Virus record (IMG/VR): IMGVR_UViG_3300021963_005690
Span: 19,584-83,583 of that record
Reading direction: 5' to 3' (one strand)
From: a virus
DNA length: 64,000 nt
Both the position numbers and the translations under genes were made by a program. Shown here piece by piece: positions 1,984 to 28,567 of the stretch (position 1 is the stretch's first letter; every line of letters begins with the position of its first letter). The notes under the pieces are model-generated. The model made no database searches, was not told the DNA's origin, and worked only from the letters and a program-made list of their open reading frames with translations.

Positions 1984-2892
1984 ATGAAAAATGTTATTGA
2001 ATGGAATGTTGGATTAAATGGGTTCAAGAAATGTACACTAGAATTAGGAGAAAATTCTCATAAATTTACCACAGAATTATTAGATGTTCCATTTGAATAT
2101 GGTCGTGATATTACGGACATATTTAATGACCATTTATCAAATAGACAGACCAAATATGTAGAGGTATTATATAGTGGTGGATTAGATAGTGAATTAGTAT
2201 TGTTATCCTGTATTAAAAACAGTATACCAGTGATAGCAATGACATTAGTTATTAAAATAGAAGGGTTAATCATTAATACACATGATTTATATTATGCTGA
2301 GAAGTTTTGTAGAGAACATAATATAATTCATAAACTTGTTGAATTAGATGCCGATAACTTTTTTCAGAATGGTAAACATTTACCTTATTTGACACCTTAT
2401 TATATCACAGAACCTCATGTAGCAACACATTTATGGTTAATTGAACAATGTAATTATTTCCCTATTATGGGCGGTGATTGGCCTTGGGTACAAATCAATA
2501 AAGAAAATAAAGTATTATCACCTAGTAGACTAGAGTTTTCTAGTTATGAAAGATTTATGACTGATAAAGGTATACACGGAATTGGAAATATGGTTGGGTA
2601 TAGTTTGGAATCTAGTTGTAAACTAATACAAATACATTTGAACAATCATACAGTTAATGAATCATCCGTATCTAATTTCAAATCAAGGATGTACCAAACT
2701 ATGTACTCTGAATTAGAACCTAGATTAAGAAGTTATGGATGGGAACATAATAAAACTAATTCATTTAATCTAATAAAGTATAAAATAGAGTTAATTAAAC
2801 AATTAAAACCTACTATCCCACTTATTAAATGGAATAACACCATTAAAACACTATTAAACACACCTGTAACAGAAAATGACAAATTCAACTAA
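1984..2892 (+). CDS. PP-loop ATP pyrophosphatase (asparagine-synthase-like)
   Basis: 302 residues. The P-P loop is SGGLDSE at about residues 63-69, preceded by the hydrophobic strand YVEVLY, as in N-type ATP pyrophosphatases that adenylate a substrate carbonyl before amide or thiol transfer. Its closest relative in this window is the PP-loop gene at 25.0-25.9 kb (same SGGLDSE loop and overall size). It lacks the glutaminase domain of true asparagine synthetase, so the nitrogen or other nucleophile donor is unknown. It overlaps the next gene by 17 bases, a methyltransferase, which suggests the two act on one product. Confidence 0.75.
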   Translation: MKNVIEWNVGLNGFKKCTLELGENSHKFTTELLDVPFEYGRDITDIFNDHLSNRQTKYVEVLYSGGLDSELVLLSCIKNSIPVIAMTLVIKIEGLIINTHDLYYAEKFCREHNIIHKLVELDADNFFQNGKHLPYLTPYYITEPHVATHLWLIEQCNYFPIMGGDWPWVQINKENKVLSPSRLEFSSYERFMTDKGIHGIGNMVGYSLESSCKLIQIHLNNHTVNESSVSNFKSRMYQTMYSELEPRLRSYGWEHNKTNSFNLIKYKIELIKQLKPTIPLIKWNNTIKTLLNTPVTENDKFN

Positions 2893-3466
2893 ATTTGATA
2901 CACATGAATCTTTTTATCATGGATTAATTAAAAGCAAAATATGGTTATGTGAGGAACTAGAAACAGCTATATACCGTGAATGTATTAGCAAACCCTCATT
3001 ACATATTCTTGGATGTTGGGATAATCTATTAGCATTCATGCTACTTACACGTAAACCTACATTCTATTATGAAGTTCATGGTTATGATATAAATCCAGAA
3101 GCAATAAGTAATGCCAATAAAGTATGTGACATGTGGAAATATGAATCTCCTAAAGTTTATAATCATGTACAGGATGTGAATAACTATGATTATAGTACAT
3201 GTGTAAACAGTATCTTTATCAATTGTAGTATAGACCAAATGGATAGCAATAATTGGTATAATTCAGTACCAAAAAGTAGTTTAGTATGTGTTCAAACTAC
3301 TAATATGAAAGATCCAGACTTTCCGTGGTTTATTAAACAAACAACAAATAGTTTGGATGAATTAGTTGAACGGTTTAATCTGAGTAATTTGATATATTCC
3401 GGTGTGACAAACATACAATATGAAACTAATGGTTATAAACGCTATATGATTATAGGACGTAAATGA
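2876..3466 (+). CDS. SAM-dependent methyltransferase-like protein
   Basis: 196 residues. LHILGCWDN at about residues 42-50 corresponds to motif I, and VHGYDINPEAI at about 67-77 to the acidic end of strand 2 that binds the ribose of SAM, so this is a class I Rossmann methyltransferase. Substrate not known. The start lies inside the upstream PP-loop gene, implying translational coupling. Confidence 0.65.
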   Translation: MTNSTKFDTHESFYHGLIKSKIWLCEELETAIYRECISKPSLHILGCWDNLLAFMLLTRKPTFYYEVHGYDINPEAISNANKVCDMWKYESPKVYNHVQDVNNYDYSTCVNSIFINCSIDQMDSNNWYNSVPKSSLVCVQTTNMKDPDFPWFIKQTTNSLDELVERFNLSNLIYSGVTNIQYETNGYKRYMIIGRK

Positions 3467-13426: not shown

Positions 13427-13460
13427 CAGTCAGGTGCAACTGCCGCTGTGCTACTGGGGA
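13385..13460 (-). tRNA. tRNA-Asn(GTT)
   Basis: Acceptor TCCCCAG/CTGGGGA, anticodon loop CTGTTAA in stem CCTGA/TCAGG, T-loop TTCGATC, encoded CCA. It overlaps the 3' end of the opposing gene by 42 bases. Confidence 0.96.
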
Positions 13461-13629: not shown

Positions 13630-13654
13630 ATTGTTTATTTAATAGTATTATACA

Positions 13655-14215: not shown

Positions 14216-14235
14216 GACAAACTCCTTAAAAAAAA

Positions 14236-14243
14236 GATAAATA
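14236..14243 (+). promoter_or_regulatory. T4-type late box (leadered)
   Basis: GATAAATA 22 bases before the HNH ATG, with an AAAGGGT ribosome binding site between. Confidence 0.5.
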
Positions 14244-14265
14244 AGTATATCACAAAGGGTACACT

Positions 14266-14931: not shown

Positions 14932-14956
14932 CTGTCTACATTTATTTAATGCCAAG

Positions 14957-15031
14957 TGGCGGGTCCTGTAGGAATTGAACCCACATCCCGAAGTTCGAAG
15001 CATCGTATTCTATCCATTGAACTAAGGACCC
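14957..15031 (-). tRNA. tRNA-Arg(TCG)
   Basis: Acceptor GGGTCCT/AGGACCC, anticodon loop CTTCGAA (stem CGATG/CTTCG has one T-T mismatch), T-loop TTCAATT, encoded CCA with G73. Confidence 0.92.
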
Positions 15032-15191
15032 GATAAAGGTGGGAGCCTAACTATCTTATTGTTAGTAAGCCTCGTTAGATTGTCTCGTATAGGCAAGTTT
15101 ACACACCCGTCAATCATACTATAGTGTCATCACAGTTAACCCCACTGTGACTAGATTGACAGGGACTCAAACCTATCGTCTATCCCATAAC
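15032..15191 (-). ncRNA. Structured non-coding spacer with nested hairpins
   Basis: No ORF supported. The outer stem GTCAATC/GATTGAC (15109-15115, 15154-15160) encloses a perfect hairpin TCACAGT-TAACCCC-ACTGTGA (15130-15150). A further CTAAC/GTTAG hairpin lies near 15046-15064. A T-arm-like string (TAGGTTTGA..CCCTG on the minus strand) is shared with the spacer at 13.5 kb. Confidence 0.4.
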
Positions 15192-15265
15192 TGGCAGAGG
15201 GTACAAGAATCGAACTTGTGATCTCGGAATCAAAATCCGATGTTATGCCATTTAACTAACCCCCA
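15192..15265 (-). tRNA. tRNA-Gln(TTG)
   Basis: Anticodon loop TTTTGAT in stem TCGGA/TCCGA, T-arm ACAAG-TTCGATT-CTTGT, encoded CCA with G73. The first acceptor pair is T-T. Confidence 0.94.
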
Positions 15266-15274
15266 ATAATCTTG

Positions 15275-15281
15275 CTAAATA
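15275..15281 (+). promoter_or_regulatory. T4-type late box, leaderless spacing
   Basis: CTAAATA, then ATTG, then ATG; no Shine-Dalgarno. Confidence 0.6.
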
Positions 15282-15285
15282 ATTG

Positions 15286-15918
15286 ATGTTTAATATTACA
15301 AAAACCCCAATCTTAATTATTTCATCACCTAGAACAGGAAGTTCAGTGTTAGGTTCATATCTACAAACTTTGTGTGACGTGCCTTACTTTAAAGAACCTG
15401 ATTACACCGGCGGCAAAGAAATGACTGACTTTTATGATTATTTCTCTCAGTCAAAAAACTTTATTCTTAAATTCCATTATATCCATTTAAATAGATACAG
15501 AAGCGATATATCCAATTATCTTATTGAAAATTCTTATAAAATAAGAATTAGAAGAAAAAATATTGTTGAACAAATTGCAAGTTTTTACATTGCGACTGAA
15601 AGAGATTTTAAGTGGCATTTTAGAAACACCGATCAACTAAATTTAGTTGACACTCTTAACATTGATATAGCAAAAATTAAACAAAATATTTTATATATTA
15701 AATACGCAAATTATAGATTAAACTCAGCACCTATTAAGTTTGATTTAGACTTATATTACGAAGACTTACCCAAAATAAATGATGTAAATTATTATATTGT
15801 TCCTAAACCTTCTAACTATAATGAGTTGTTATCTACGATAACAGAATTGGTACCGCCACCTGGATTTGAACCAGAGACCTACGCCTTATCAAGGCGGTGC
15901 TCTACCACTGAGCTATAG
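15286..15918 (+). CDS. Sulfotransferase-like protein
   Basis: 210 residues from ATG (a TTG lies directly before it). PILIISSPRTGSSVLGSYL at about residues 8-26 is the 5'-phosphosulfate-binding loop of PAPS-dependent sulfotransferases, and YKIRIRRKNIVEQIAS at about 84-99 occupies the place of the 3'-phosphate motif (usually R-x7-S). It is shorter than usual. The last about 23 residues are encoded antisense across the complete tRNA-Ile, so the functional domain probably ends before. Acceptor unknown. Confidence 0.65.
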   Translation: MFNITKTPILIISSPRTGSSVLGSYLQTLCDVPYFKEPDYTGGKEMTDFYDYFSQSKNFILKFHYIHLNRYRSDISNYLIENSYKIRIRRKNIVEQIASFYIATERDFKWHFRNTDQLNLVDTLNIDIAKIKQNILYIKYANYRLNSAPIKFDLDLYYEDLPKINDVNYYIVPKPSNYNELLSTITELVPPPGFEPETYALSRRCSTTEL

Positions 15919-15922
15919 CGGT
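15848..15922 (-). tRNA. tRNA-Ile(GAT)
   Basis: Acceptor ACCGCTA/TGGCGGT, anticodon loop TTGATAA in stem CCGCC/GGCGT, T-loop TTCAAAT, encoded CCA. Lies entirely antisense to the end of the sulfotransferase-like ORF. Confidence 0.96.
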
Positions 15923-15926
15923 GAAT

Positions 15927-16001
15927 TGGTGGATGTAAGTAGATTTGAACTACTAACCTATTCCGTATGAAGGAATTGCACTACCCTTGTGCTATACATC
16001 C
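15927..16001 (-). tRNA. tRNA-Met(CAT), elongator
   Basis: Acceptor GGATGTA/TACATCC, anticodon loop TTCATAC in stem ATTCC/GGAAT, T-loop TTCAAAT, encoded CCA. Taken as Met because the other CAT elongator resembles Ile2; the reverse assignment cannot be excluded. Confidence 0.88.
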
Positions 16002-16002
16002 A

Positions 16003-16079
16003 TGGGGTGCTTGATGGGATTTGAACCCACGCATATCGGAATCACAATCCGAGGTCTTAACCGCTTGACGACAAGCACC
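16003..16079 (-). tRNA. tRNA-His(GTG)
   Basis: Acceptor GTGCTTG/CAAGCAC with the extra G-1 opposite C73 that is diagnostic of tRNA-His; anticodon loop TTGTGAT in stem TCGGA/TCCGA; encoded CCA. Confidence 0.96.
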
Positions 16080-16085
16080 GTATAT

Positions 16086-16177
16086 TGGTAGAAACGGTGA
16101 GATTCGAACTCACGGGACCATTGCTGATCCGTCTGATTTCAAGTCAGGTGCATTAAACCGGGCTCTGCCACGTTTCC
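16086..16177 (-). tRNA. tRNA-Ser(TGA)
   Basis: Type II with long variable arm; acceptor GGAAACG/CGTTTCT, anticodon loop CTTGAAA in stem CCTGA/TCAGA, encoded CCA. Confidence 0.96.
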
Positions 16178-16185
16178 TTTTATTA

Positions 16186-16261
16186 TGGTAGGACCAGGGC
16201 GGTTCGAACGCCCGACCAACGGATTAAAAGTCCGCTGCTCTACCGACTGAGCTATGGTCCC
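16186..16261 (-). tRNA. tRNA-Lys(TTT)
   Basis: Acceptor GGGACCA/TGGTCCT, anticodon loop CTTTTAA in stem GCGGA/TCCGT, T-loop TTCGAAC, encoded CCA. Confidence 0.97.
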
Positions 16262-16267
16262 ATATAT

Positions 16268-16344
16268 TGGTGCGACCGGAAGGACTTGAACCTCCGACTC
16301 CCTATTTCGTAGACAGGTACTCTAATCCACTGAGTTACGGTCGC
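16268..16344 (-). tRNA. tRNA-Arg(ACG)
   Basis: Acceptor GCGACCG/CGGTCGC, anticodon loop CTACGAA in stem CCTGT/ATAGG, T-loop TTCAAGT, encoded CCA. A34 would need host TadA to become inosine. It is the most upstream tRNA of the array. Confidence 0.96.
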
Positions 16345-16570
16345 ATTCTAAAACACACATAGTACACTCTAGTCATCAAAGTTGCCCTCTTGGCCTTATT
16401 TTCCACTATGTATGCTTTAGAATGCCGTGTATCTCTACACGACATGATAGGGTCAATACCCTACCCAGTAGTCTTACTAACATGTTGTCTCCATGCTTTC
16501 ATATATACTGTCCGCCCATTCTATACATTTTGCGCTGTATTACGGCTCTCGTTGCCTATTCACGCTGTCA
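16345..16570 (-). ncRNA. Structured leader with 19-bp stem upstream of the tRNA array
   Basis: Arms 16345-16363 and 16405-16423 form a 19-bp stem in minus-strand RNA, with two G-U wobbles that would be A-C mismatches on the plus strand. The stem abuts the 5' end of tRNA-Arg(ACG). Upstream are hairpins CGTGTA/TACACG and AGGGT/ACCCT (16425-16460). No ORF is supported here. Confidence 0.45.
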
Positions 16571-16738
16571 TCAATCAGTGTAAGTCAGTTGGTTAACTTT
16601 CTTAGTAGCCTCATGATGGACTCTAGCACGTTCAAGTTTATTTTCTATCAACTGTGCTACTTGTTCCTTAGTCAAAACATGATTGCTAAACCAATCTTGT
16701 TTGTTTTCAGAAGTTTTGTATTGTATCTGTTCATCCAT
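16571..16738 (-). CDS. Small phage protein of unknown function
   Basis: 55 residues, MDEQIQYKTSENKQDWFSNH..., then LTKEQVAQLIENKLERARV, helical and charged. Codon use is like neighbouring genes. A sigma70-like promoter overlaps the first codons, so a transcript from that promoter would lack this ATG; translation would need the upstream promoter and read-through of the terminator. Confidence 0.55.
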   Translation of the reverse strand: MDEQIQYKTSENKQDWFSNHVLTKEQVAQLIENKLERARVHHEATKKVNQLTYTD

Positions 16739-17114: not shown

Positions 17115-18575
17115 TTAAATTTGTCTGTGGGCAAGCTTTTTTGCAATATAGGTTTTTATTATGTATCTTAAATTATTATGAACTTTACCTTCATCGTCTA
17201 TTACAACCACTGGTTCTTCCCTCATTTCTGTTATAGGATTTTTATTATCATACAAGCCTTTTATTGATTCATTAAATTTAGTTTGAAGTTCACTTGCTAA
17301 TTTAGAAGCTGATGAGTTTGACATATGTTCTGTTTTCCACTGCAAATTTTTGTATAAAATTTTGTTAGTAATTGTATATCCATATTTTTCTGGATTGGAT
17401 GCAAACTTACTAGAGAACATTCTACCTTCTGAATTACGAATTCCCAAAGAACCAACTTTTACATGTTGAGTAAGCGTAGGATTATCAATGAACCATTGAA
17501 CTGTATCTCTTGCAGTTTCTTCAGTGTCATGGGGTAGGCCTAATATTAAATTAATTTGAAATTTATTATCGGGAAATCGTTCTCTTAATTGTAATAAAAA
17601 TGATTTTAATTTGTTGGGATCAGCTCCTTTACCAACAGCCTTACCACTATCTCGGTTGAAAGTTTCAACACCAAATGTCATTGACCTCCAACCTATTTCA
17701 GAAATTAAATCAACTTGTTCAGTTTTGGATGCAAGCAAATCTAATCTACAATATGCCCAAAATTGAAAATCAATGTTAGTTTCTTCTCTAATTTCTTTAA
17801 TCATTTGCATTTTTTCAATGCTATCGTTAAATGTATCGTCTACAAAAATAAATCTAGTAGATCCATACTGGGTGTACCTATCTACTATATCTCTTTTAAT
17901 ACTTTCTTTATCACGAATGTAGGTTCCTAGTTTTTTACCCAGATGGGCAAATTCACAAAAAGCACAATGAAAAATGCAACCTCTACCTATCTCTATAGGA
18001 AATACTTCATTGTCACTTATAAAATCAGTATAATCATAGTTTGTTTCTAGATCGGACAAATCAGTTATCGGGTAATCACGATCACTGTTTACCACTTGCA
18101 TTCCGTTATATGATTCACTAATCAAAGTACCGTTGTTAACCAGATAATTATGTATTGCAATTACAGAGACATCGGAATATCCCATACATACAATATCAAA
18201 ATCACTTGTCATGTGTCTAACTAGTTCTGCGTTAGGACCGCCCAATACAAGTTTTTTCTTTCTACTTTTTATATATGAAATTAATTTGTTTTCTCCTTCT
18301 ACAGAAAAACGAGTGAATAATCCTGAACCTTCTATATTTCGTTGTGTTAGATAACTTTGTACACTAAATCCGGGTTGATAGAACTTAGTACTGAATCCAA
18401 ACCATTCAATGTTTTCAATACTATCTAGATATTTAAACAATATATCTAGATCCCAGTGTGATAGGTAATCTATCACTTCTACCTCTAAACCCTGTCTGCG
18501 TAATACTGTGGCGATCCTATAAATCCCAATGGATCTGTTAGGCACGTTAGGACTTTCATTGAATAATATAATCAT
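17115..18575 (-). CDS. B12-binding-domain radical SAM enzyme
   Basis: 486 residues from MIILFNESPN; an ATG 45 bases upstream lies inside the preceding gene and has no better ribosome site. Residues 1-170 look like a cobalamin-binding Rossmann domain (ILFNESP, KLVLGGPNAELV). The radical SAM domain has GRGCIFHCAFCEF (C-x3-C-x2-C, about residue 200), FIFVDDTFN and later FGVETFN and INLILGLPHDTEE. This is the class that performs methylations or ring rearrangements in bacteriochlorophyll, hopanoid and peptide pathways. Last gene of the minus-strand island. Confidence 0.85.
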   Translation of the reverse strand: MIILFNESPNVPNRSIGIYRIATVLRRQGLEVEVIDYLSHWDLDILFKYLDSIENIEWFGFSTKFYQPGFSVQSYLTQRNIEGSGLFTRFSVEGENKLISYIKSRKKKLVLGGPNAELVRHMTSDFDIVCMGYSDVSVIAIHNYLVNNGTLISESYNGMQVVNSDRDYPITDLSDLETNYDYTDFISDNEVFPIEIGRGCIFHCAFCEFAHLGKKLGTYIRDKESIKRDIVDRYTQYGSTRFIFVDDTFNDSIEKMQMIKEIREETNIDFQFWAYCRLDLLASKTEQVDLISEIGWRSMTFGVETFNRDSGKAVGKGADPNKLKSFLLQLRERFPDNKFQINLILGLPHDTEETARDTVQWFIDNPTLTQHVKVGSLGIRNSEGRMFSSKFASNPEKYGYTITNKILYKNLQWKTEHMSNSSASKLASELQTKFNESIKGLYDNKNPITEMREEPVVVIDDEGKVHNNLRYIIKTYIAKKLAHRQI

Positions 18576-18592
18576 TTTTTTATTTGTTGTAG

Positions 18593-19753
18593 TTAAGAAT
18601 ATGTTCCTAAATAATGCCATTTTGTAGCAGTAGGTAAAAACTCTCCATTTTCCATAATACTAGGGATAGAACGGTCTAACATGTTATCGTATGATTTCCA
18701 ATAATATCTCCATTTTGCCTTTAGATCAGCAAGCTCAGGTAACGTTTCAATTATTACATCACCCGGTCGCATATCGCTTTTTATACCCCATGAAGGTTTT
18801 TCTACTTGAAACTTATTTTTATCCCATGTTGAGTACAATACTGTACCTGTCAGGTCACAAAATTTTTGCCACTTGGCATGTCCAACTGTATGACCTTGAC
18901 CAGGCATCTTTTGAATTACATATCTTAAATCTTTGTTAATGTCAAAAAATTTAAAAGTTTTGTATGCCATTTCCCATGCTAACTCTGGCATGTCAGGTGA
19001 CCAATAAAAATACTCAGTACCATTAGGATTGTGAATTGTAGGACTTGATATAACCATTGGCTTATCTTTAAGATTCATATAGACTTTATCGCCGGATTCT
19101 GTTCCTAACGATATTAGTCTAGGTTTATCGATTCCCCACATTAGAGCTACACTTTTTCCTTTATCTAACATCTCTCGTTCACCTGGATCCACCGCAAAGT
19201 TAGCAGACCTAAGCATACTACCTAAAAAGTAACCACCCCTAGGATCTATAAACGAATCTTCTTTTAAAGAATTCATAGCAGATTCATCTAACCAATCTAA
19301 TAATACTATTTTAGTATACGGATGATTTGTTGATACCCATTCAAGCATTGGTTTTATTGTAAAATCCCATTCGCTGTATCGGTTTAATTGTGAAGTATCG
19401 TTTTGATTTGGTTTATGAATATTATTATTTAACGCACTAAAAGGTAGTCTGACTGTTATTTGATCTAACTTAATGTTATTGTTAAGGTAAGTCATCAAAA
19501 TGTTATGACTATCTGAACCACCACTGTAGTTTAGTATAAGATAGTCATACGCATCTCTTAGTTGTAACGCTCGTTGCTTATAGAAAAAATCTAGAGGAAA
19601 TTTTCCTAAATGTTCTCTGTTTACCTTTTCAAAGATATCCTCATGATAAAACCAATATATTGGTTGTTTATTTTTTGAGGCTGCAATGTGCGCTAACATA
19701 CAGCTATAATGTTTTTCTTCTCCTACTAAGTAATATCCATATTTGGTAAACAT
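18593..19753 (-). CDS. PP-loop ATP pyrophosphatase, asparagine-synthase-like
   Basis: 386 residues. YDYLILNYSGGSDSHNIL at about residues 70-87 is a P-P loop of the N-type ATP pyrophosphatases. It is clearly paralogous to the 375-residue gene at 21.9-23.1 kb, which also has the N-terminal WYFYDE/WFYHEDIF and RALQLRD segments and the EWDFTIKP block. No glutaminase domain, so it is not a standard asparagine synthetase. The ATG is two bases from the stop of the periplasmic binding protein gene, so they are one operon. Confidence 0.72.
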   Translation of the reverse strand: MFTKYGYYLVGEEKHYSCMLAHIAASKNKQPIYWFYHEDIFEKVNREHLGKFPLDFFYKQRALQLRDAYDYLILNYSGGSDSHNILMTYLNNNIKLDQITVRLPFSALNNNIHKPNQNDTSQLNRYSEWDFTIKPMLEWVSTNHPYTKIVLLDWLDESAMNSLKEDSFIDPRGGYFLGSMLRSANFAVDPGEREMLDKGKSVALMWGIDKPRLISLGTESGDKVYMNLKDKPMVISSPTIHNPNGTEYFYWSPDMPELAWEMAYKTFKFFDINKDLRYVIQKMPGQGHTVGHAKWQKFCDLTGTVLYSTWDKNKFQVEKPSWGIKSDMRPGDVIIETLPELADLKAKWRYYWKSYDNMLDRSIPSIMENGEFLPTATKWHYLGTYS

Positions 19754-19754
19754 A

Positions 19755-20660
19755 TTAGAGCAAAGATTCTAAAAACATTAATTCTCGTAGGAACTCTTTT
19801 TGACCAAACATTGCATCAGAACTATTTAAGTAAACCTCATTAAATTTTGATTTGTGAGTTTGTATGAACTCTTTAGATATGTCAGTATAAAAATTTATTA
19901 CATGAGGTGGTGTTCCTTTTGGAACTACGATCCCTATTAATGCACCAAAATCTTTACCCAATGGATTAATTTTTGAGCTGAACTCAGGTACATTAGTTCC
20001 TGAAGCAGTAGTTGCAATTGCTACCATTTTTCCTTGTTGAATATAAGTACCAGTTGAAGCCTGTGTTGATATTGCATAGTCAATTATGCCACCTAATAAG
20101 TCTCTTGTCACATCACTATTGTTTTTGTAGGGTACAACCACTACATCATGATTTAAGGTTTTTGCAAGAGTTTTAGCTAAAATTTCTTGTGTCTCGGTTG
20201 AATATGCAATACTAATCTTCTTTCTAGGTAAAGCTATTAATTGATTGATGGTTTTAACCGAGTTATCAGACCGTGTAACTAAGAACGAAGGTACTTTACC
20301 AACTATAGTGATAAGTTCAAAATCTTTATATGAATGCTTTTTTGACATATATGCGGCCTCATCAGGGTGAACCATCATTCCTAGACCCAATGTCATTAGT
20401 AATGAATATCCATTGGGTTGTTGTTGACTTAAATGTGCTGTTGCTATTTGTCCTTTAGCCCCTTGTTTAACATCAACAAATGCAGTTATACCTTTTGATG
20501 ATAAAAATCTCTCAAACCAAGTTGCAACAAGATGTGTTGTTCCGCCCGGTCCATGGCCACTTATAACTGCAACTGTTTTGTTTTTATCTGGTATCCATTC
20601 GGCATGTGCAGAAGTAGTTATATTTAATAACACGGTTAATAATACAAGTATTTTAATCAT
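19755..20660 (-). CDS. TctC/Bug-type periplasmic solute-binding protein
   Basis: 301 residues with an N-terminal signal peptide (MIKILVLLTVLLNITTSAHA, cleavage after AHA). ISGHGPGGTTHLVATWF follows, matching the 'PxxPGGxxD' ligand-binding loop of tripartite tricarboxylate transporter receptors, and VVVPYKNNSDVTRDLLGG resembles the conserved 'PYKG...DLLGG' segment. These proteins bind small carboxylates in the periplasm. A phage copy could scavenge a substrate or modulate host uptake. A CTAAATA box and AAAGGA ribosome site lie upstream. Confidence 0.82.
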   Translation of the reverse strand: MIKILVLLTVLLNITTSAHAEWIPDKNKTVAVISGHGPGGTTHLVATWFERFLSSKGITAFVDVKQGAKGQIATAHLSQQQPNGYSLLMTLGLGMMVHPDEAAYMSKKHSYKDFELITIVGKVPSFLVTRSDNSVKTINQLIALPRKKISIAYSTETQEILAKTLAKTLNHDVVVVPYKNNSDVTRDLLGGIIDYAISTQASTGTYIQQGKMVAIATTASGTNVPEFSSKINPLGKDFGALIGIVVPKGTPPHVINFYTDISKEFIQTHKSKFNEVYLNSSDAMFGQKEFLRELMFLESLL

Positions 20661-20683
20661 CTAAGATTCCTTTGTGAGTTAAT

Positions 20684-20690
20684 TATTTAG
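20684..20690 (-). promoter_or_regulatory. T4-type late box (leadered)
   Basis: CTAAATA 23 bases before the ATG of the first TctC-like gene, with AAAGGA between. Confidence 0.5.
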
Positions 20691-20694
20691 TGAT

Positions 20695-20702
20695 GATAAA
20701 TA
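20695..20702 (+). promoter_or_regulatory. T4-type late box (leadered)
   Basis: GATAAATA 23 bases before the ATG of the plus-strand gene, with AAAAGGA between. It is divergent from the box of the TctC gene. Confidence 0.5.
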
Positions 20703-20725
20703 CATTATTAATAAAAGGAATAGCA

Positions 20726-21022
20726 ATGTACAAATATCGTATTGTTACTATAAAAAATGTCAATATTGAATGGTATCCAAAAGATCCTTCGCTGGAAACA
20801 CATTTAAATGAAACCTACATAAATACAGGAATAATGTCATTAGTCACTATTAGTAATGAATCATCTAATAGTACAGATATATTGACCAAAGAAGTGACAT
20901 TTATAAATGAGGAATCATTTGTTAGATATAAAACGGATCCATTAATAGTAGAATATATTGTCGGACGCAATGCGTATGAAGCTAATAATTCAATTGTGAG
21001 AATCAAAGAAAATATTGTTTAA
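20726..21022 (+). CDS. Small protein of unknown function, opposite to its neighbours
   Basis: 98 residues from MYKYRIVT with AAAAGGA nine bases upstream; an earlier in-frame ATG lies before that site. The protein is beta-rich, with KEVTFINEESFVRYKTDP and VEYIVGRNAYEANN in the C-terminal half, and has the look of a small alpha/beta barrel-type dimer. It is the only plus-strand gene within the island, inserted between the two TctC-like genes. Confidence 0.6.
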   Translation: MYKYRIVTIKNVNIEWYPKDPSLETHLNETYINTGIMSLVTISNESSNSTDILTKEVTFINEESFVRYKTDPLIVEYIVGRNAYEANNSIVRIKENIV

Positions 21023-21036
21023 TATACAAATCAGTG

Positions 21037-21939
21037 TTAATAAGACTTTGCGATGAATGTCTTAACCGTCTCTTCCGCTTTTTGCGGATCACTAGAAACT
21101 AATTCAATGTTATCTCTTTTAAATTCATCCAATGTTGCAGGATCGTTAAGGTATTGATTAATAAAAATAGTCCAAGCTTTTATTACTTCAGTAGTTGTGT
21201 CCGGCGGTGTAATCAAACAATACCAGTCAAAATCTTCCCATTGAACATAATGTTTTTGCAATAACATTGAATTTGGACTATTTTTTGGCACCGTTGATGA
21301 GTTAATAGCAATTATTCTAATGGTGTCTGTATCTGCATATGTTGATATAATATTATACGGTAGTAATGCAGATGTAATATGACCCCCCAATAAATCTGTT
21401 ATAACATTTGAACCACCCTTGTATGCTATATTAATGGGTTCATTTCTTATCTTCATTAATTCAGTTAATTGACTGAAATACATTCTTTGCGCAGGTGCGG
21501 CAAATCCAAAACTAAACTTTGGATCATTCTTTATTGCATTTTCATAATCGGCTAATGTTTTAATAGGGGATTTAGCATTTACAATCAATGCTATTGGTGC
21601 ATTTCTAATTCCTATTATAGGTTTAATATTATCTGTGTTATTTTTCATTCTATATATAGCGATGTTACCGGTAGTAACTATTCCAACTGTATACCCGTCA
21701 TTTTTTGACTTAGCTAATTCATTCATACCTATCAATCCCTCTGCGCCGGGCCTGTATACAGGAACTAATTTTATATTATGTTTAGTAGCATAGTTCATAA
21801 TACTTTTGAATGTAGCATCTACTCCGCCTCCCGGAGAAAACGGTATAACAACTTTAATTGGTTCTTTTGTTAAGTCAAATGAGTGTGACATTGTAGTTAC
21901 TAATAACATAGCAACTACGATTAATATTTTTTTTATCAT
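21037..21939 (-). CDS. TctC/Bug-type periplasmic solute-binding protein
   Basis: 300 residues. Signal peptide MIKKILIVVAMLLVTTMSHS, then IKVVIPFSPGGGVDATF, a textbook TctC loop, and YRPGAEGLIGMNELA and IAYKGGSNVITDLLGG, both conserved in the family. It is a second, more canonical copy than the gene at 19.8 kb. Its ATG overlaps the stop of the upstream PP-loop gene (ATGA), so binding protein and PP-loop enzyme are translated together. Confidence 0.88.
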   Translation of the reverse strand: MIKKILIVVAMLLVTTMSHSFDLTKEPIKVVIPFSPGGGVDATFKSIMNYATKHNIKLVPVYRPGAEGLIGMNELAKSKNDGYTVGIVTTGNIAIYRMKNNTDNIKPIIGIRNAPIALIVNAKSPIKTLADYENAIKNDPKFSFGFAAPAQRMYFSQLTELMKIRNEPINIAYKGGSNVITDLLGGHITSALLPYNIISTYADTDTIRIIAINSSTVPKNSPNSMLLQKHYVQWEDFDWYCLITPPDTTTEVIKAWTIFINQYLNDPATLDEFKRDNIELVSSDPQKAEETVKTFIAKSY

Positions 21940-23063
21940 ATTAAATTTCCTATTTTAACCCACGGCGATATACAAATACGCTGACAGGTATGATTAAACG
22001 TTAATAAGTTTACATCTATAGTTGAATACCAACTTGAAAAGTTATAATCCCATCTCTCTTTGTATGATTTAAAATCATTATGGTTTAAGTATATCAAATC
22101 TCTAGTACGGCCCATAGTAGAAAGTTCACTAGTTTTTCCTACTTGAAATTTATAGTCCCATGTATTATAAATTATGGGTATAAAAAAGTTTCTACTTTCA
22201 TCATGTGTTGCCGATGATATTAATCGTTTAACCTCAAATAGTGCTCTATTAGTAGGATCTTTATTTAATTGTTCTAATATAGCTCTAGCCTGTGCATAGA
22301 AAATTAAAGGACAATCTACTGACCAATAAAATAATTCAGTAGAAGCGTTAGTATCTGATGAATATATCTTATTGGCAACATTAACAGCACCGTCTGTGAA
22401 GAATCCAAATAACGTATTTTCTTTAATTACAAGATGAGGTTTGTCTATCCCGTAAATGTCTGCTACAGTTTTACCTTTATCTAAACATTTTTGTATTGAA
22501 TCAGAATATGATGATTGTCTTAATATTTCAAAAACACCTAAATAATGCCCGGCTCTATCACCTATATCATCATATACCTTTAAGGATTGTGTTTGAAAAA
22601 TATCATGTATGTTTATTTTAATATCAGGGTACTCTTTGGCTATCCACTCTAATGTAGGTTTAATTGTGAAGTCCCATTCGCTAAACAGATTTGCGGCTGT
22701 CAAATCTGCCTTATTTGGAGTATATATCTTTTCATCAACTGTAGAACTACGCTGAACATATATTTCATCTAATTTTATGTTATTAGATAGAAATGACATT
22801 AAAACATTATGACTGTCTGCACCGCCACTATAATTTAAAATCAAATAATCATATTTGTCTCTCAACTGGTGTGCTCGTTGTTTATATAGTTCATCCAACG
22901 GCGGTATGTATATAGGAGATTTCCTATAATTTTCATACAAATCAAACCAAATCTCATCATAAAAATACCATTTTAATGGAGATTTACTTTCTGATGCTTT
23001 GTATGCCGCTTTGCTTTTGCTATGAAATATTTCACCGTTAACGGTATAATGTCCAAGTGTCAT
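21936..23063 (-). CDS. PP-loop ATP pyrophosphatase, asparagine-synthase-like
   Basis: 375 residues with the P-P loop LILNYSGGADSHNVLM at about residues 74-89, the EWDFTIKPTLEW block and KWYFYDE near the N-terminus, all shared with the paralogue at 18.6-19.8 kb. Lacks an amidotransferase domain. It overlaps the hydroxylase-like gene upstream and the TctC gene downstream by 4 bases each. The repeated pairing of this enzyme type with a periplasmic carboxylate-binding protein suggests a carboxylate substrate (inference). Confidence 0.72.
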   Translation of the reverse strand: MTLGHYTVNGEIFHSKSKAAYKASESKSPLKWYFYDEIWFDLYENYRKSPIYIPPLDELYKQRAHQLRDKYDYLILNYSGGADSHNVLMSFLSNNIKLDEIYVQRSSTVDEKIYTPNKADLTAANLFSEWDFTIKPTLEWIAKEYPDIKINIHDIFQTQSLKVYDDIGDRAGHYLGVFEILRQSSYSDSIQKCLDKGKTVADIYGIDKPHLVIKENTLFGFFTDGAVNVANKIYSSDTNASTELFYWSVDCPLIFYAQARAILEQLNKDPTNRALFEVKRLISSATHDESRNFFIPIIYNTWDYKFQVGKTSELSTMGRTRDLIYLNHNDFKSYKERWDYNFSSWYSTIDVNLLTFNHTCQRICISPWVKIGNLI

Positions 23064-23779
23064 GTTAATAAATGATTAATATCTTCAGTGCCATTGATAG
23101 ATATCATAAAAGTATATCTATCATGCTTACTAAAATTAGTTACTGCATGTTTATACCCAGTATTCAAGAAGTATGCATTTCCTGGAGTAAACAATACTGA
23201 TTCAATATTATTTTTAACCCAAAACAAGTTAACACACTCTGGTTCAGCGAATATAGGAATGATAATTCTAACTGCGTAACTAGGGTCATAATCAATATGT
23301 GGGGTAATATTATTACCTGCTTCTAATTTTACTAAACGAATTCTAGTAGGTGTACCTTTAAATTTGCTCAAAACTTTATCAAATATAGTTGCATATTTTT
23401 TGTAGATTTCCGTTTTATGAACAAATGTTGCTTCATTATGAATACTACTTACGTCGGTACTTAACATCTTTTTTTGACGCATGCCTTTAATCTTACCCTC
23501 TTTATGAAAGTCTTTAGCTATCATTTCTAACTCATCAATAGAGACTTCTTCGTTTGGTAATTCGCTATCGGTTAGACTTATTTGAAAGAAGTTTTTATAA
23601 ACATCATTAGTTAAATCATAATGTACTCCGCATAACTTTTTGTTTACTTTCAGTGCAGACTTGAACTCTGTTTCTAAATTACGTACACAGGTTTGTAGTT
23701 CAGAAAGTAAGGTTGAATCTAATTTCAAATGTTCTAAAATACTATAGGTTGGTAATAAATGTTTTATTTTTTGTGTCAT
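23060..23779 (-). CDS. Aspartyl/asparaginyl beta-hydroxylase-like oxygenase
   Basis: 239 residues from MTQKIKHLLP; the longer frame overlaps the desaturase. RLVKLEAGNNITPHIDYDP (about residues 158-176) has the H-x-D pair, VRIIIPIF follows, and GNAYFLNTGYKHAVTNFSK..DRYTFMISI holds the distal His and Arg. This is the layout of the Asp/Asn beta-hydroxylase family of Fe(II)/2-oxoglutarate oxygenases (PHIDYD...GNxYFLNTxxxHAVxN). In the island it could hydroxylate an amino-acid-like or peptide intermediate. Confidence 0.8.
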   Translation of the reverse strand: MTQKIKHLLPTYSILEHLKLDSTLLSELQTCVRNLETEFKSALKVNKKLCGVHYDLTNDVYKNFFQISLTDSELPNEEVSIDELEMIAKDFHKEGKIKGMRQKKMLSTDVSSIHNEATFVHKTEIYKKYATIFDKVLSKFKGTPTRIRLVKLEAGNNITPHIDYDPSYAVRIIIPIFAEPECVNLFWVKNNIESVLFTPGNAYFLNTGYKHAVTNFSKHDRYTFMISINGTEDINHLLT

Positions 23780-23780
23780 T

Positions 23781-24488
23781 TTATTTGACCTTAAGTAACG
23801 AATGGAAATGTCCACCCCAATCAGCCCAGTGTCTAAATGACGGATTAGCAGGTTGGTCGTGATGGTTTTTGTGCCAACCTTCACCTCCGTTTAAGAATCC
23901 TAATACTGGTACATTTGTGGGTCCGTTCTTGTCATGGCAGAATATGTTAATTAAACTTCCACCTAACCACATTAGTACTCCGGGCACTACAAGTAATATC
24001 CAATACCATTTCAATGGTAAAAAGATTAATCCTAATAGGTGAATAGAATACAATACATGAAAATAGTATTTGTGTTGAAACAGATATAATGGTTTTCTTA
24101 GCAAGTCAGGAACATATTTTACAATATCTTTGTCATTATCTGACATTTGCCAATATGCTCTAAAACGTCCCATAAACTTAGGACTATGTGGGTCTTTTTC
24201 TGTGTCACTATATCTATGATGTTTTCTATGGACACCTGCCCAAGCTAATGCAGATGAGGTTGCACCTAACCAAGATAACGTTACTAGTATTTTTTCAGCT
24301 AACGGATGAATGTCATTTTTATGTGATACTGTTCTATGGAATAGCATAGTACCACACAACCCAACATATAAAATCTGCGATAGAACAAGTGTGGGTATTG
24401 TTATGTACCACGGGTAATATAATAACCCTATTACAAATAAAATATGTAAATAAATCTGTGTTATAATGAGTTTTTGTTTGTATGTCAT
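23781..24488 (-). CDS. Membrane fatty-acid desaturase
   Basis: 235 residues with the three histidine boxes of acyl-CoA/acyl-lipid delta-9-type desaturases: HRTVSH (about 51-56), HRKHH (about 87-91) and HKNHH (about 211-215), separated by hydrophobic membrane pairs. It introduces a double bond into acyl chains using a di-iron centre. Slightly short at the N-terminus compared with bacterial homologues. Presence of rubredoxin 1.4 kb away is notable as a possible electron donor. A late box stands five bases before the ATG. Confidence 0.9.
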   Translation of the reverse strand: MTYKQKLIITQIYLHILFVIGLLYYPWYITIPTLVLSQILYVGLCGTMLFHRTVSHKNDIHPLAEKILVTLSWLGATSSALAWAGVHRKHHRYSDTEKDPHSPKFMGRFRAYWQMSDNDKDIVKYVPDLLRKPLYLFQHKYYFHVLYSIHLLGLIFLPLKWYWILLVVPGVLMWLGGSLINIFCHDKNGPTNVPVLGFLNGGEGWHKNHHDQPANPSFRHWADWGGHFHSLLKVK

Positions 24489-24493
24489 GTTAC

Positions 24494-24500
24494 TATTTAT
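24494..24500 (-). promoter_or_regulatory. T4-type late box, leaderless spacing
   Basis: ATAAATA, then GTAAC, then the desaturase ATG; gap five bases, no Shine-Dalgarno. It lies just past the stop of the upstream GNAT gene. Confidence 0.55.
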
Positions 24501-25031
24501 TCATAGCTCTAATGTTAACAACCATTGTTCTACACCATTAAACATTATAGGTTTGGATGACGCAGTAAAGGTGTGTTCGGGCAATGCCTTAGGTAACATA
24601 TATTTTTTTGTTAATTCAAAAAGTTTATAATTGTAATCATTAAATGAAATAATTACACTATGACAACCTAACTCTTTGGCTCTTTCAATTTGGTATTTAG
24701 TATTATGAAGGTGTGTATATGATTTTACACCTAAACCCTTATGCCTATTATCAGCATCGGAAAAACCACGAAACACCGCCTGATATACTTTATTACCGTT
24801 GAACTCTCTGACTATGCCACCAGTTGCAGTCCAAAATTTCTCATTAACATACAATAATTGATACGTATCAATTGCATCATCCCTTAATAAACTTAACAAG
24901 CTCCATGGGTGAGTATAATTGTAATTTTCTGGAATCTCTTCTCCAAACTTATCAATCAATGCACGTTTAAGCATGTCAACAAATTTATCTTTATTTTCTT
25001 TAGAGAGTGTTATCATTACTACTGTGTCCAT
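24501..25031 (-). CDS. GNAT-like acetyltransferase
   Basis: 176 residues. FRGFSDADNRHKGLGVKSY (about residues 87-105) resembles motif A of GNAT proteins (R-x-x-G-x-G/A) and HSVIISFNDYNYKLFELTKKY fits motif B. It overlaps the upstream PP-loop gene by 13 bases. The N-terminal methionine could be MDTVVM or the later MITLSK. Likely acyl-transfers onto the product of the adjacent PP-loop enzyme (inference). Confidence 0.65.
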   Translation of the reverse strand: MDTVVMITLSKENKDKFVDMLKRALIDKFGEEIPENYNYTHPWSLLSLLRDDAIDTYQLLYVNEKFWTATGGIVREFNGNKVYQAVFRGFSDADNRHKGLGVKSYTHLHNTKYQIERAKELGCHSVIISFNDYNYKLFELTKKYMLPKALPEHTFTASSKPIMFNGVEQWLLTLEL

Positions 25032-25885
25032 GACAATCTTTCTATCAAATCAAAATACTCATGATTACTTGACCCCCACCATTTATCTTTCCAACTTTTA
25101 ACTAATTGAATATCGGGATGATTGAATATTGGACTTTTTTCTACAACTTCATATCCATGTTGCTTTTGTCGTTGCTCTAATTTAAATTTAACTTGATTAT
25201 TATAAACATAAACTTTACTTGAGTAAGATCCTGTCTTACCTGATATACGATTACTTGCTAATAATAACATTGTAGGGTCAGTAAGGAATGCAAAGTATTG
25301 TTCAGAATTATAACTTAAAAAGAAAGGTGTACCGTGTATATTATTTTTTTTAAAGAAATCAAATTGTCTATATATAGGTTCTATCTCATCTACATACCAT
25401 TTGCCATTAATGTCTAATAGTAAGTGAGGGTCAGAATCACCGGTAATAACTGTTCCTTCTAGTTGAGTAAGTAACCACAAATTGCTAGGCATTTGGTATG
25501 CGGCTATTTTATACTCTGTTGCAATTTTTAAAAATTCACCGGACTCTACAAACTTATCATAATCTAAATCAATAATAATTGGAGTAATGCTATTTTCATC
25601 ACAATATTTAAATGCATATTGTATATCATGGTGATTATATTGTGTACGCATAATCACAGGAGATATCGGCATACCCAAAGTCCTAAACACAGCTAGTACA
25701 TATTCGCTATCAAGACCCCCACTATAACATAAATGAATTTTTCCTTGTTTTTCTGCCCAAATTTTTTCAGCTACTAGTACAGTTTCTTCATAAAAAGATT
25801 TAATGGGGCGACTTACCGAGTTGATGTTTACACACCAACTTGAGCCGGTACCAGACCAAGTTAAATAGCCACTCTGTAAATTCAT
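25019..25885 (-). CDS. PP-loop ATP pyrophosphatase, asparagine-synthase-like
   Basis: 288 residues with KIHLCYSGGLDSEYVLAVF at about 51-69 containing the P-P loop. It is more similar in size and loop to the plus-strand PP-loop gene at 2.0 kb than to its two neighbours in the island. The stretch MPSNLWLLTQLEG and ITGDSDPHLL corresponds to the THLWLIEQCN and MGGDWPW region of that gene. It starts the minus-strand island. Confidence 0.72.
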   Translation of the reverse strand: MNLQSGYLTWSGTGSSWCVNINSVSRPIKSFYEETVLVAEKIWAEKQGKIHLCYSGGLDSEYVLAVFRTLGMPISPVIMRTQYNHHDIQYAFKYCDENSITPIIIDLDYDKFVESGEFLKIATEYKIAAYQMPSNLWLLTQLEGTVITGDSDPHLLLDINGKWYVDEIEPIYRQFDFFKKNNIHGTPFFLSYNSEQYFAFLTDPTMLLLASNRISGKTGSYSSKVYVYNNQVKFKLEQRQKQHGYEVVEKSPIFNHPDIQLVKSWKDKWWGSSNHEYFDLIERLSWTQ

Positions 25886-26505: not shown

Positions 26506-26808
26506 TCATTCATCAGTGGGTTTTAATCCATTACTGTGTTTATCTGTTGTTTTTTCAATATCCTGAAATAAACGTTTCTCTTGTGCTGTTAGTTTATCTT
26601 TATGTGACCTGCGTGGGTTACCACATATATAACATTCTTTATTACCACAATCCATAACATGATGTTTTGCTAAACGGTGTGGTTCTTTTATTGCTTTATC
26701 TTTATGTGTTAACCCATGTGCTTTTGCTATCTTAACTTGTTTCTTAACTGCTGTTTCATCCCGATGACGGCGTTGTGAGTTTAAAAATTTTGCTAATTCA
26801 TTGGCCAT
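26506..26808 (-). CDS. Phage protein with Cys/His-rich centre
   Basis: 100 residues, basic. KHHVMDCGNKECYICGNPRR near the middle may bind zinc (C..C..C plus His). Common in T4-like aquatic phages but of unknown function. It overlaps the start of the iscU gene region by 11 bases. Confidence 0.7.
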   Translation of the reverse strand: MANELAKFLNSQRRHRDETAVKKQVKIAKAHGLTHKDKAIKEPHRLAKHHVMDCGNKECYICGNPRRSHKDKLTAQEKRLFQDIEKTTDKHSNGLKPTDE

Positions 26809-27187
26809 TATATTTCTTTCTATAATCTTCTACTGCGGCTTTGATGGCGTCTTCGGCGAGGATACTGCAGTGGATTTTGACTGGGGGGAGGGCAAGTTCG
26901 TCTGCGATCTGGGAGTTTTTAATGGATGAAGCTTCATCCAATGTTTTACCTTTGACCCAGTCTGTGACAAGACTTGAAGAAGCAATTGCCGACCCACACC
27001 CATATGTTTTAAATTTGGCATCTGTTATTATTCCTGTTTCTTTATTTACTTTAATCTGTAACTTCATTACATCCCCGCATGCAGGGGCTCCTACCATACC
27101 TGTACCTACATCATCCTCATCTTTACTAAAACTTCCCACATTTCTTGGGTTTTCGTAATGGTCTATCAACTGCGGCGAATAACTCAT
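26798..27187 (-). CDS. iscU: Iron-sulfur cluster scaffold protein IscU
   Basis: 129 residues, full length for IscU. The three cluster-ligand cysteines are present: PACGD (C37), YGCGSAIASSS (C64) and IHCSILAED (C107), and LPPVK (100-104), the HscA-recognition motif, marks it as IscU rather than NifU. Base composition in its second half is noticeably GC-richer than flanking genes, suggesting recent transfer from a bacterium. Its 5' end overlaps a homing endonuclease ORF. Confidence 0.93.
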   Translation of the reverse strand: MSYSPQLIDHYENPRNVGSFSKDEDDVGTGMVGAPACGDVMKLQIKVNKETGIITDAKFKTYGCGSAIASSSLVTDWVKGKTLDEASSIKNSQIADELALPPVKIHCSILAEDAIKAAVEDYRKKYNGQ

Positions 27188-27815
27188 ATAATTTCTCCAA
27201 TGTTATGGAACATTTAGTCCCTTTTCTTACATTATCAGTACTCAATAAAAATTCTAAATTATATACACTACCAATAATATTGGGAGAAACTTTGTTTTTA
27301 AATCCTTCTGATATACTATATTTATGATCCAAATGATACTCAGTTTTGCTTCTTTTATCAAAGTTTGCTAACATAGTTAAATCGTTTTTTGAAGTCCAAT
27401 AATAAACTTTTCTACGATACTTTTTAAATTCTAAATATTCAGGATCATCTGGTTTCCACCAAAGACCTTTAGCAATACAGGTATCCTTACGTTTTTGTAT
27501 AGACTGCTCAGTTACTATTTTGCCAGTTAGTGTATTAGATCGTTTTTTGTTTGACTCTACTGATTGCTGTTTTCCGGTCCATGCACTTCTAGTTAGATTA
27601 GCAAGGCTATTACTATTAGTCTGTCTTACTCCAAACATTGGATTGTTTTCTCCTTGTTTAGCTATACTATTCTTTTCTTTCCAGGATTCAGTACGATTAT
27701 TTGCTGCCCATCGTCTAGAACAAATTGGTCCACAAAACCTTCTTTTTAAATTTTTTTGATGTAGATTGGGTAATGTAAATTTGATATTACAATGTTCGCA
27801 AATTTTAGTTAGCAT
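27126..27815 (-). CDS. HNH-like homing endonuclease with zinc finger
   Basis: 229 residues. CEHCNIKF and FCGPICSRRW form an N-terminal zinc-binding pair. NNPMFGVRQTNS is a NUMOD3-like repeat. The nuclease core near residue 160 reads YHLDHKYSISEGF...NLEFLLSTDNVRKG, an H-x2-D-H HNH variant. The last about 20 residues use the same DNA as the N-terminus of iscU in another frame, so the element sits precisely at the iscU 5' end. Confidence 0.8.
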   Translation of the reverse strand: MLTKICEHCNIKFTLPNLHQKNLKRRFCGPICSRRWAANNRTESWKEKNSIAKQGENNPMFGVRQTNSNSLANLTRSAWTGKQQSVESNKKRSNTLTGKIVTEQSIQKRKDTCIAKGLWWKPDDPEYLEFKKYRRKVYYWTSKNDLTMLANFDKRSKTEYHLDHKYSISEGFKNKVSPNIIGSVYNLEFLLSTDNVRKGTKCSITLEKLYELFAAVDRPLRKPKKCGKF

Positions 27816-27839
27816 AATAGGACTTTCGTTGTGTTCTAT

Positions 27840-27846
27840 TATTTAG
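27840..27846 (-). promoter_or_regulatory. T4-type late box (leadered)
   Basis: CTAAATA 24 bases before the ATG of the homing endonuclease. Confidence 0.45.
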
Positions 27847-27853
27847 TCCTTTA

Positions 27854-27970
27854 TTAATCTTTTTTGAACATAGTCAAAATTTTTGCTTGTATATTCTTTG
27901 CAAACTGAGGCTGTGGGAAATTCCAACCAATAAATGCACCTAGTGCTAACCAAAATAATGTTTCTAACAT
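27854..27970 (-). CDS. Small single-pass membrane protein
   Basis: 38 residues, MLETLFWLALGAFIGWNFP followed by a basic tail (FKKD). Residues 3-18 form a hydrophobic segment, so it is probably an inner-membrane peptide. AAGGAG precedes the start and a CTAAATA late box lies 24 bases upstream. Function unknown. Confidence 0.65.
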   Translation of the reverse strand: MLETLFWLALGAFIGWNFPQPQFAKNIQAKILTMFKKD

Positions 27971-27994
27971 AATGAGTTCTCCTTGTATGTACTG

Positions 27995-28001
27995 TATTTA
28001 G
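27995..28001 (-). promoter_or_regulatory. T4-type late box (leadered)
   Basis: CTAAATA 24 bases before the small membrane protein ATG, with AAGGAG between. Confidence 0.5.
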
Positions 28002-28567
28002 TGTTCATCAGTATTGTCTATTACTATCCAACCTAATTTCAACAAATCTTCTCTTATCTCATCAGTTACTACACTTTCAGGTACAAACTTCTTACTTTGT
28101 ATATAGTATTCTTGTTGTTCTTTTGTAAGGGCACGAAATTCATCATCATCTAATATCTTACTATCTCTGATACCACTACAATACCAATCAATGTAATCGC
28201 CCTTCTCTTGCATATCAGCAATGATACCACCAGCATGTCTCCAACTACAACTCCACTTTTTCTCAGTTAAGATTGGCCATACATCATTCTTAGTAAAATC
28301 ATTGTTACACATAGAGGCATACAAATTTTGTGCATATACTTCATCACCTTTAACTTTGTCAATGATCCATTGCGTACTACGTAGGTCATACTCCATGTTA
28401 TCTTTTTTCCACTCATCAGTTTCTTCAAGTTCAAGAGTTTGCTGGTGCCATTCCTCATAGAATTTAATCATTTCTTGTGCTAATTCGGGTGTTTTGGTGC
28501 CCTCTTCAACACGCTTTAATTGAGATTTAATTTGAAATGTACCTTTTTCTGGACTTTTATTTATCAT
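27998..28567 (-). CDS. Uncharacterised phage protein
   Basis: 189 residues, acidic and helix-rich. The first half includes ELAQEMIKFYEEWHQQT, the second WPILTEKKWSCSWRHAGGIIADM. The pattern is common in phage genomes without known function. Its ATG lies inside the 3' end of the DUF2452-like gene (11-base overlap). Confidence 0.72.
   Translation of the reverse strand: MINKSPEKGTFQIKSQLKRVEEGTKTPELAQEMIKFYEEWHQQTLELEETDEWKKDNMEYDLRSTQWIIDKVKGDEVYAQNLYASMCNNDFTKNDVWPILTEKKWSCSWRHAGGIIADMQEKGDYIDWYCSGIRDSKILDDDEFRALTKEQQEYYIQSKKFVPESVVTDEIREDLLKLGWIVIDNTDEH

Follow-up and report, generated by a model that had tools for sequence, protein, structure and literature searches.

A PP-loop enzyme family paired with secreted TctC-type receptors in a variable gene island of freshwater T4-like jumbo phages

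Adenylation of a carboxyl or carbonyl group is a common chemistry of PP-loop enzymes, and cyanophages carry PstS, a phage-encoded periplasmic binding protein which boosts host uptake. The TctC receptors of tripartite tricarboxylate transporters (TTT) for which a ligand is known bind carboxylates, among them citrate, aspartate, glutamate, quinolinate, terephthalate and adipate (PMC5812351, PMC11452294). Beta-proteobacteria possess many TctC proteins per TctA permease, and orphan TctC genes have been found next to enzymes that use the imported carboxylate (PMC5812351). In viruses, a TctA-like (TTT permease) domain has been recorded on SUP05 phage contigs (PMC4164917), and the lipid desaturases of cyanophages represent a phage-borne family of membrane desaturases (Roitman et al., 2018, cited in PMC11480375). 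Here, we describe a gene island in bases 19584–83583 of the IMG/VR virus record IMGVR_UViG_3300021963_005690, an uncultivated phage contig of 83,583 bases; this stretch of 64,000 nucleotides (nt) is referred to as the window. Its interval 17115–25885 encodes a radical S-adenosylmethionine (SAM) enzyme, three PP-loop proteins, two secreted TctC proteins, a 2-oxoglutarate (2OG)-type hydroxylase, a desaturase and a GNAT-like protein. Comparison across phage contigs reveals a well-supported two-gene module formed by TctC and one of the PP-loop families, PPa, which is a previously undescribed, large and nearly phage-specific enzyme family without a Pfam entry. The genes of the interval are as follows (aa, amino acids):

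25019..25885, minus strand: PPb1, PP-loop ATP-pyrophosphatase of family b, 288 aa, which opens a conserved four-gene cassette (SGGLDSE motif, AlphaFold model, orthologues)
24501..25031, minus strand: GNAT-like protein, overlapping PPb1 by 13 nt (grouping with island proteins, syntenic orthologues)
23781..24488, minus strand: membrane fatty-acid-desaturase-like protein, 235 aa (PF00487, NF049918, three histidine boxes)
23060..23779, minus strand: 2OG/Fe(II) Asp/Asn-hydroxylase-like protein; open reading frame call from GTG 23884 (PF05118, HxD...H motif)
21936..23063, minus strand: PPa2, PP-loop protein of family a, 375 aa, overlapping TctC2 by 4 nt (SGGADSHN, family invariants)
21037..21939, minus strand: TctC2, secreted TTT-type substrate-binding protein (PF03401, signal-peptide-like N-terminus)
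20690..21022, plus strand: small protein of family c9, 110 aa (recurrent in islands, without a family match)
19755..20660, minus strand: TctC1, secreted TTT-type substrate-binding protein (PF03401, signal-peptide-like N-terminus)
18593..19753, minus strand: PPa1, PP-loop protein of family a, 386 aa, overlapping the radical SAM gene by 28 nt (SGGSDSHN, AlphaFold model)
17115..18620, minus strand: radical SAM enzyme with the motif CIFHCAFC and a possible cobalamin-binding domain at the N-terminus (PF04055)

Every gene named in a first-pass annotation of this DNA was recovered where it had been placed, and Pfam and NCBIfam profiles back the radical SAM enzyme, both TctC proteins, the hydroxylase and the desaturase. 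The same annotation had described a minus-strand run of overlapping or abutting genes; the overlaps are seen, while the run is interrupted by a real plus-strand gene, that of family c9, which counts 38 members across 27 loci.

Two alignment searches of viral contigs yielded 148 loci, many on contigs of 100–524 kb, and homologous islands were found in many contigs of freshwater T4-like jumbo phages (up to 524 kb). Adjacency was evaluated in 82 non-redundant loci, with expectations taken from 300 shuffles of the gene order. PPa and TctC genes are neighbours in 50 cases as opposed to 11.1 expected (shuffle maximum 22); both genes point the same way in 42 of these 50 pairs, and the majority overlap or are at most 30 nt apart. 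Further enriched neighbours are PPb and a methyltransferase (14 observed, 1.7 expected), PPb and a Rieske protein (10 and 1.7), the desaturase and family c10 (13 and 2.7), and PPa and PPb (23 and 8.7). Because the first loci had been chosen by PPa or PPb, the search was repeated from TctC alone; in the resulting 37 loci, which include some near-duplicate contigs, PPa is a direct neighbour in 24 and either PPa or PPb is present in 30. The trees of the two partners also co-vary, with a Mantel r of 0.61 for 37 adjacent pairs (null mean 0, standard deviation 0.05, maximum 0.20 in 2000 permutations), and PPa clade 1 stands with TctC clade 4 in 17 of 21 cases and PPa clade 2 with TctC clade 1 in 11 of 14. 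Where a locus holds several pairs, swapping partners within it reaches the observed co-variation in 2% of trials, a value based on six loci. The co-occurrence in related phages on which the first-pass annotation depended is thus borne out, the families being found together in dozens of loci and far above the shuffles. Searches with single proteins returned no matches for the PP-loop and radical SAM proteins in cultured phages or viral contigs, and for TctC weak matches in two Salmonella records and nothing else.

PPa is encoded in 24 of 28 phage records, mostly in 1–5 copies. A T4-type terminase is present once each in 13 of these records, among them 11 of the 13 longest, and the records without it may be fragments. 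In cells, a pattern-limited search of 84,980 species genomes found PPa at 5 loci, one in a Methylococcaceae metagenome-assembled genome (MAG) and four in Bacteriovoracaceae MAGs. In the class of the former it occurs in 1 of 369 genomes, there on a phage-like 3 kb PPa-DctP-PPa contig, and in the order of the latter in 4 of 129. The Bacteriovoracaceae MAGs (L152:9974-11059; L153, L154, L155) each carry a single PPa homologue in a host-like gene context without TctC or desaturase; the neighbourhood is common to L153, L154 and L155, and the homologue of L152 is followed by a methyltransferase-like gene.

The PP-loop proteins belong to two families, PPa and PPb, whose profiles are alignable over the PP-loop region only (96% probability). 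PPa1 and PPa2 are 35% identical. The window holds a further PPb gene outside the interval, together with its neighbour:

1984..2892, plus strand: PPb2, second PP-loop protein of family b (26% identical to PPb1)
2876..3466, plus strand: methyltransferase-like protein paired with PPb2 (Methyltransf_31 2e-4, below cut-off)

This succession of PPb2 and a methyltransferase-like gene (1984–3466) is widely conserved in these phages, and the methyltransferase family occurs in 49 loci. A nicotianamine-synthase-like identity of the methyltransferase partners was considered and dropped, as these match generic methyltransferase profiles only.

The three PP-loop proteins of the interval have no individual match in the Pfam or NCBIfam libraries, and individual members of PPa show no meaningful Pfam match. 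The first-pass assignment to the PP-loop type is nevertheless sustained by the SGGxDS motifs and by the family folds. The SGGxDS columns are conserved in 72–74 of 74 PPa sequences and the residues S, G, D and S in 47–50 of 50 PPb sequences, and the invariants of PPa comprise R, R, SGG.DS, E, GxDKP and K. AlphaFold models of PPb1 and PPa1 reached a mean predicted local distance difference test score of 94.2 and 90.4, respectively. Structural comparison of the PPb model returned 93 PDB matches at E <= 1e-3, led by PP-loop enzymes; the matches include LarE, carbapenam synthetase and MnmA. The best PDB match of the PPa model is LarE, a weak one (2.5e-3, probability 0.99); no solved structure matched it well over its full length, and strong matches were obtained solely to uncharacterised proteins of uncultured phages. 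A glutaminase N-terminal domain of the asparagine synthetase type was not found in PPa or PPb by Pfam scans (proteins of 288 and 375–386 aa).

PPb members do match QueC (34 of 50) and asparagine synthase weakly in Pfam. Together with fold matches that include MnmA and LarE, and with 24 tRNA genes upstream in the window, this would suit a role of the island in tRNA or nucleobase modification, where MnmA-, TilS- or QueC-like PP-loop enzymes serve the phage tRNAs encoded beside it. However, neither PP-loop family reaches an equivalog cut-off: the PPb protein of the related phage locus L156 scores 23.3 bits against the curated QueC cut-off of 150.3, and the window proteins have no QueC match. Since PPb1 also lacks a QueC-type cysteine cluster and the partners of the PP-loop genes are a secreted TctC and a membrane desaturase, such a role appears quite improbable.

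Both receptors clearly exceed the PF03401 cut-off of 27 bits (TctC1 5.7e-21, 75.7 bits; TctC2 3.1e-25, 89.7 bits), and TctC2 is homologous to the solved structures of BugE, Bug27, BugD and a terephthalate-binding protein. A signal-peptide-like N-terminus, called by a hydrophobicity heuristic and not by a trained predictor, is present in all 65 complete TctC proteins; it is absent from 95 of 100 PPa proteins, and PPb proteins are mostly without one. The membrane subunits TctA and TctB were not found in the record of the window, and TctA is encoded in only 2 of the 28 phage records (profile matches at 1e-136 and 4e-84):

26551-28047 of record G024 (L156:4552-6048): TctA permease gene, by profile match
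15197-16654 of record G015 (L157:5198-6655): TctA permease gene, by profile match

In one of these two contigs, a truncated TctB-like gene (below cut-off) precedes TctA, and the two adjoin genes for GNAT, desaturase, fatty-acid hydroxylase, PPb, PPa and TctC; farther along lie a SPASM radical SAM gene and a nitronate-monooxygenase-like gene. Binding proteins of the DctP (TRAP) type (PF03480, 2.8e-45) that lack any signal peptide also occur in these phages, often beside or near PPa (L052:5524-6480, L056:6831-7763 and 15 others). The scarcity of TctA among these phages, as well as the discussion of surplus TctC proteins as possible sensors in bacteria (PMC5812351), would be consistent with TctC serving as a periplasmic sensor, decoy or exclusion factor instead of taking part in uptake, its ligand then being a product of PPa. 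Yet some of the phages do encode TctA, and we noticed neither a sensor kinase nor a receptor partner among the island genes; we give this possibility very little weight.

A comparison with four related phages (L030, L083, L086 and L088) separates fixed from exchangeable parts of the interval. The cassette of PPb, GNAT, desaturase and hydroxylase occupies the same site in all four and is 61–82% identical (PPb1 78–80%, GNAT-like protein 68–76%, desaturase 66–82%, hydroxylase 61–66%). Where present, the core flank, comprising ribonucleotide reductase, glutaredoxin, IscU-like and rubrerythrin-like genes (named from their sequences), shows identities of mostly ~60–93%, yet the PPa, TctC and radical SAM genes are either absent from these phages or replaced by relatives of just 25–36% identity. 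In a further phage (L071), a flank of 75–88% identity borders a wholly different set of island genes. The interval therefore combines a conserved cassette with modules that can be exchanged, within an island that is hypervariable. The idea of the first-pass annotation that the genes together could build or tailor a small molecule finds no support in the sense of one joint pathway, because gene content turns over rapidly: the cassette is fixed, PPa and TctC are exchangeable and the remainder is swapped between close relatives.

The same turnover, with family combinations changing from phage to phage, is what would be expected if independent auxiliary metabolic genes for membrane fluidity, carbon uptake and other functions had gathered in a hypervariable hotspot without a joint product, and phage lipid desaturases are indeed known by themselves (Roitman et al., 2018, cited in PMC11480375). 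On the other hand, such a collection fits poorly with pairs that recur far above chance (PPa with TctC, PPb with the methyltransferase or Rieske protein, desaturase with c10), with the gene overlaps, with the co-variation of the PPa and TctC trees and with the conserved four-gene cassette. Independent genes are consequently regarded as a fairly unlikely explanation, albeit one with a substantial share of the probability.

Within the cassette, the desaturase matches PF00487 (2.9e-8, 34.3 bits as opposed to a cut-off of 29.7), the DesA model NF049918 (3.1e-19) and acyl-CoA desaturase structures (3e-5), and contains the histidine boxes HRTVSH, HRKHH and HKNHH. The hydroxylase exceeds the cut-off of the Asp/Arg hydroxylase family PF05118 (5.3e-5); its start is probably ATG 23779 and not GTG 23884, because the orthologues begin directly where the desaturase gene ends. 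The GNAT-like protein (24501–25031) has no significant Pfam or NCBIfam match by itself, so that the GNAT call of the first-pass annotation rests with its relatives: among 33 island proteins grouped with it, 8 match Acetyltransf_7 and 6 Acetyltransf_1. The radical SAM domain is evident from PF04055 (3.6e-15) and the CxxxCxxC motif, here CIFHCAFC, while the label "B12-type" applied earlier is tentative because the match to the B12-binding family PF02310 (0.013, 15.7 bits) stays below the cut-off of 32.1. The closest NCBIfam models of this enzyme, PhpK and rSAM_ladder_B12, are both far below their cut-offs, and its relatives occur in 23 loci, including the record of the window. A reading of the island as a defence system was set aside, since PADLOC yielded nothing beyond one candidate, of the radical SAM type (2.9e-16), and a stray match to CARF.

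Desaturase, hydroxylase and GNAT point to a predicted acyl tailoring. One way to account for them is remodelling of envelope lipids, in which the desaturase, the PF05118 hydroxylase, the PF04116 fatty-acid hydroxylase and GNAT alter host (outer-)membrane lipids of an ornithine-lipid- or lipid-A-like kind and the PP-loop enzymes add amide head groups. Three oxygen-dependent enzyme families that count lipid enzymes among their members do recur in the islands, and the closest models of the radical SAM enzyme include ladderane and hopanoid lipid enzymes, far below cut-off. Nonetheless, lipid remodelling leaves the secreted TctC unexplained, PF05118 covers peptide hydroxylases too, and a scan of island genes detected none for an OlsA/OlsB- or LpxA-type acyltransferase, which renders it unlikely.

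Given the ligands of characterised TctC receptors, the bacterial precedent of orphan TctC genes and the usual chemistry of PP-loop enzymes, the simplest reading of a secreted receptor for carboxylates that is paired with a PP-loop enzyme of the cytoplasm is that an acid is captured, imported and activated. The carboxylate role that the first-pass annotation had given to both proteins is retained as the most sensible predicted reading, into which the secretion signals, the fold and the pairing fit. The genes, their pairing and co-variation, the secretion signals, the fold and the phage specificity are observed, whereas ligand, reaction, import through host TctAB and product are inferred. On this reading, the hypervariable metabolic island is assembled from reusable modules, the central one being a cognate pair in which TctC would bind one specific carboxylate within the periplasm of the host. 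The carboxylate would enter through a TctAB permease of the host or, in some phages, through phage-encoded TctA, and cytoplasmic PPa, having no glutaminase domain, may adenylate it with ATP and couple it to an amine or another acceptor. The cassette, sometimes joined by radical SAM, Rieske or fatty-acid hydroxylase proteins, could acylate, desaturate and hydroxylate an acyl or amide product; as its desaturase is membrane-bound, this product is probably lipid-like. This sequence of capture by TctC, activation by PPa and tailoring by the other enzymes is proposed tentatively, at somewhat less than even likelihood. Several points weigh against it. TctA and TctB are absent from most of the phages, so that import would depend on the host; the DctP-type proteins near PPa carry no signal peptide (0 of 14) and thus appear cytoplasmic, a misfit with uptake; PPa and PPb have no known substrate; the swap test draws on few loci; and one common product is unlikely given the variation in gene content.

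An extension of the capture and activation proposal would be a combinatorial biosynthesis, in which each PP-loop enzyme is served by its own co-evolved periplasmic receptor and the infected cell takes up chosen acids and turns them into phage-specified amide or lipid-like metabolites. This is conceivable though rather doubtful; if true, it would amount to a new type of small-molecule metabolism under phage control, built on an enzyme family not described before. If the capture and activation proposal itself is right, very large freshwater phages would redirect how their hosts take up and transform dissolved organic acids, using modules reshuffled between phages. As PPa is tied to secreted receptors, the ligand of the receptor should disclose the substrate of the enzyme, making the chemistry testable.

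Elsewhere in the window, the 24 tRNA genes occupy ~10 kb of the minus strand (6261–16344), interspersed with HNH/GIY-YIG-like endonuclease genes and several small 2OG-oxygenase-like genes. Sugar-nucleotide/heptose-synthesis-like genes (epimerase, PfkB-type kinase, nucleotidyltransferases) at 39666–42970 suggest surface-sugar work by the phage; gene names in both regions derive from the sequence only. At 48532–53974, three proteins with RCC1-like repeats (WGWGxNxxGQLG), apparently tail-fibre/adhesin-like, lie beside a 1725-aa repeat protein.

In agreement with the first-pass annotation, which knew of no phage system with this set of genes, no description of such a set or of the PPa-TctC pair was found in the open-access literature searched, subscription papers and preprints being outside this scope. 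The island belongs to a known kind, phage auxiliary metabolism, as phage desaturases, a viral TctA-like domain and phage PstS are already known; its novelty is possibly greater if a chemistry specific to the pair is shown. Like TctC, cyanophage PstS is a periplasmic receptor encoded by a phage, but it is a phosphate ABC receptor and a single gene with no dedicated enzyme partner. With BugD, BugE, Bug27, TphC and AdpC, the phage TctC proteins have in common PF03401, the PGG ligand-loop motif, the signal peptide and homologous structures; in contrast, they are phage-borne, exist in many divergent copies and are paired with a PP-loop family almost unknown in cells. PPa and PPb share the SGGxDS loop and fold with the PP-loop ATP pyrophosphatases AsnB, beta-lactam and carbapenam synthetase, LarE, QueC, MnmA and NadE, but differ from them in the missing glutaminase domain and equivalog assignment and, for PPa, in the missing Pfam family and full-length structural counterpart. 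For SUP05 phages, the relevant part of the report describes one TctA-like domain match of unknown role and no pairing of TctC with a PP-loop protein (PMC4164917). Unlike the cyanophage desaturases, as they are summarised in the citing article (Roitman et al., 2018, cited in PMC11480375), the desaturase described here sits in a cassette with PPb, GNAT and hydroxylase genes and in multi-copy islands.

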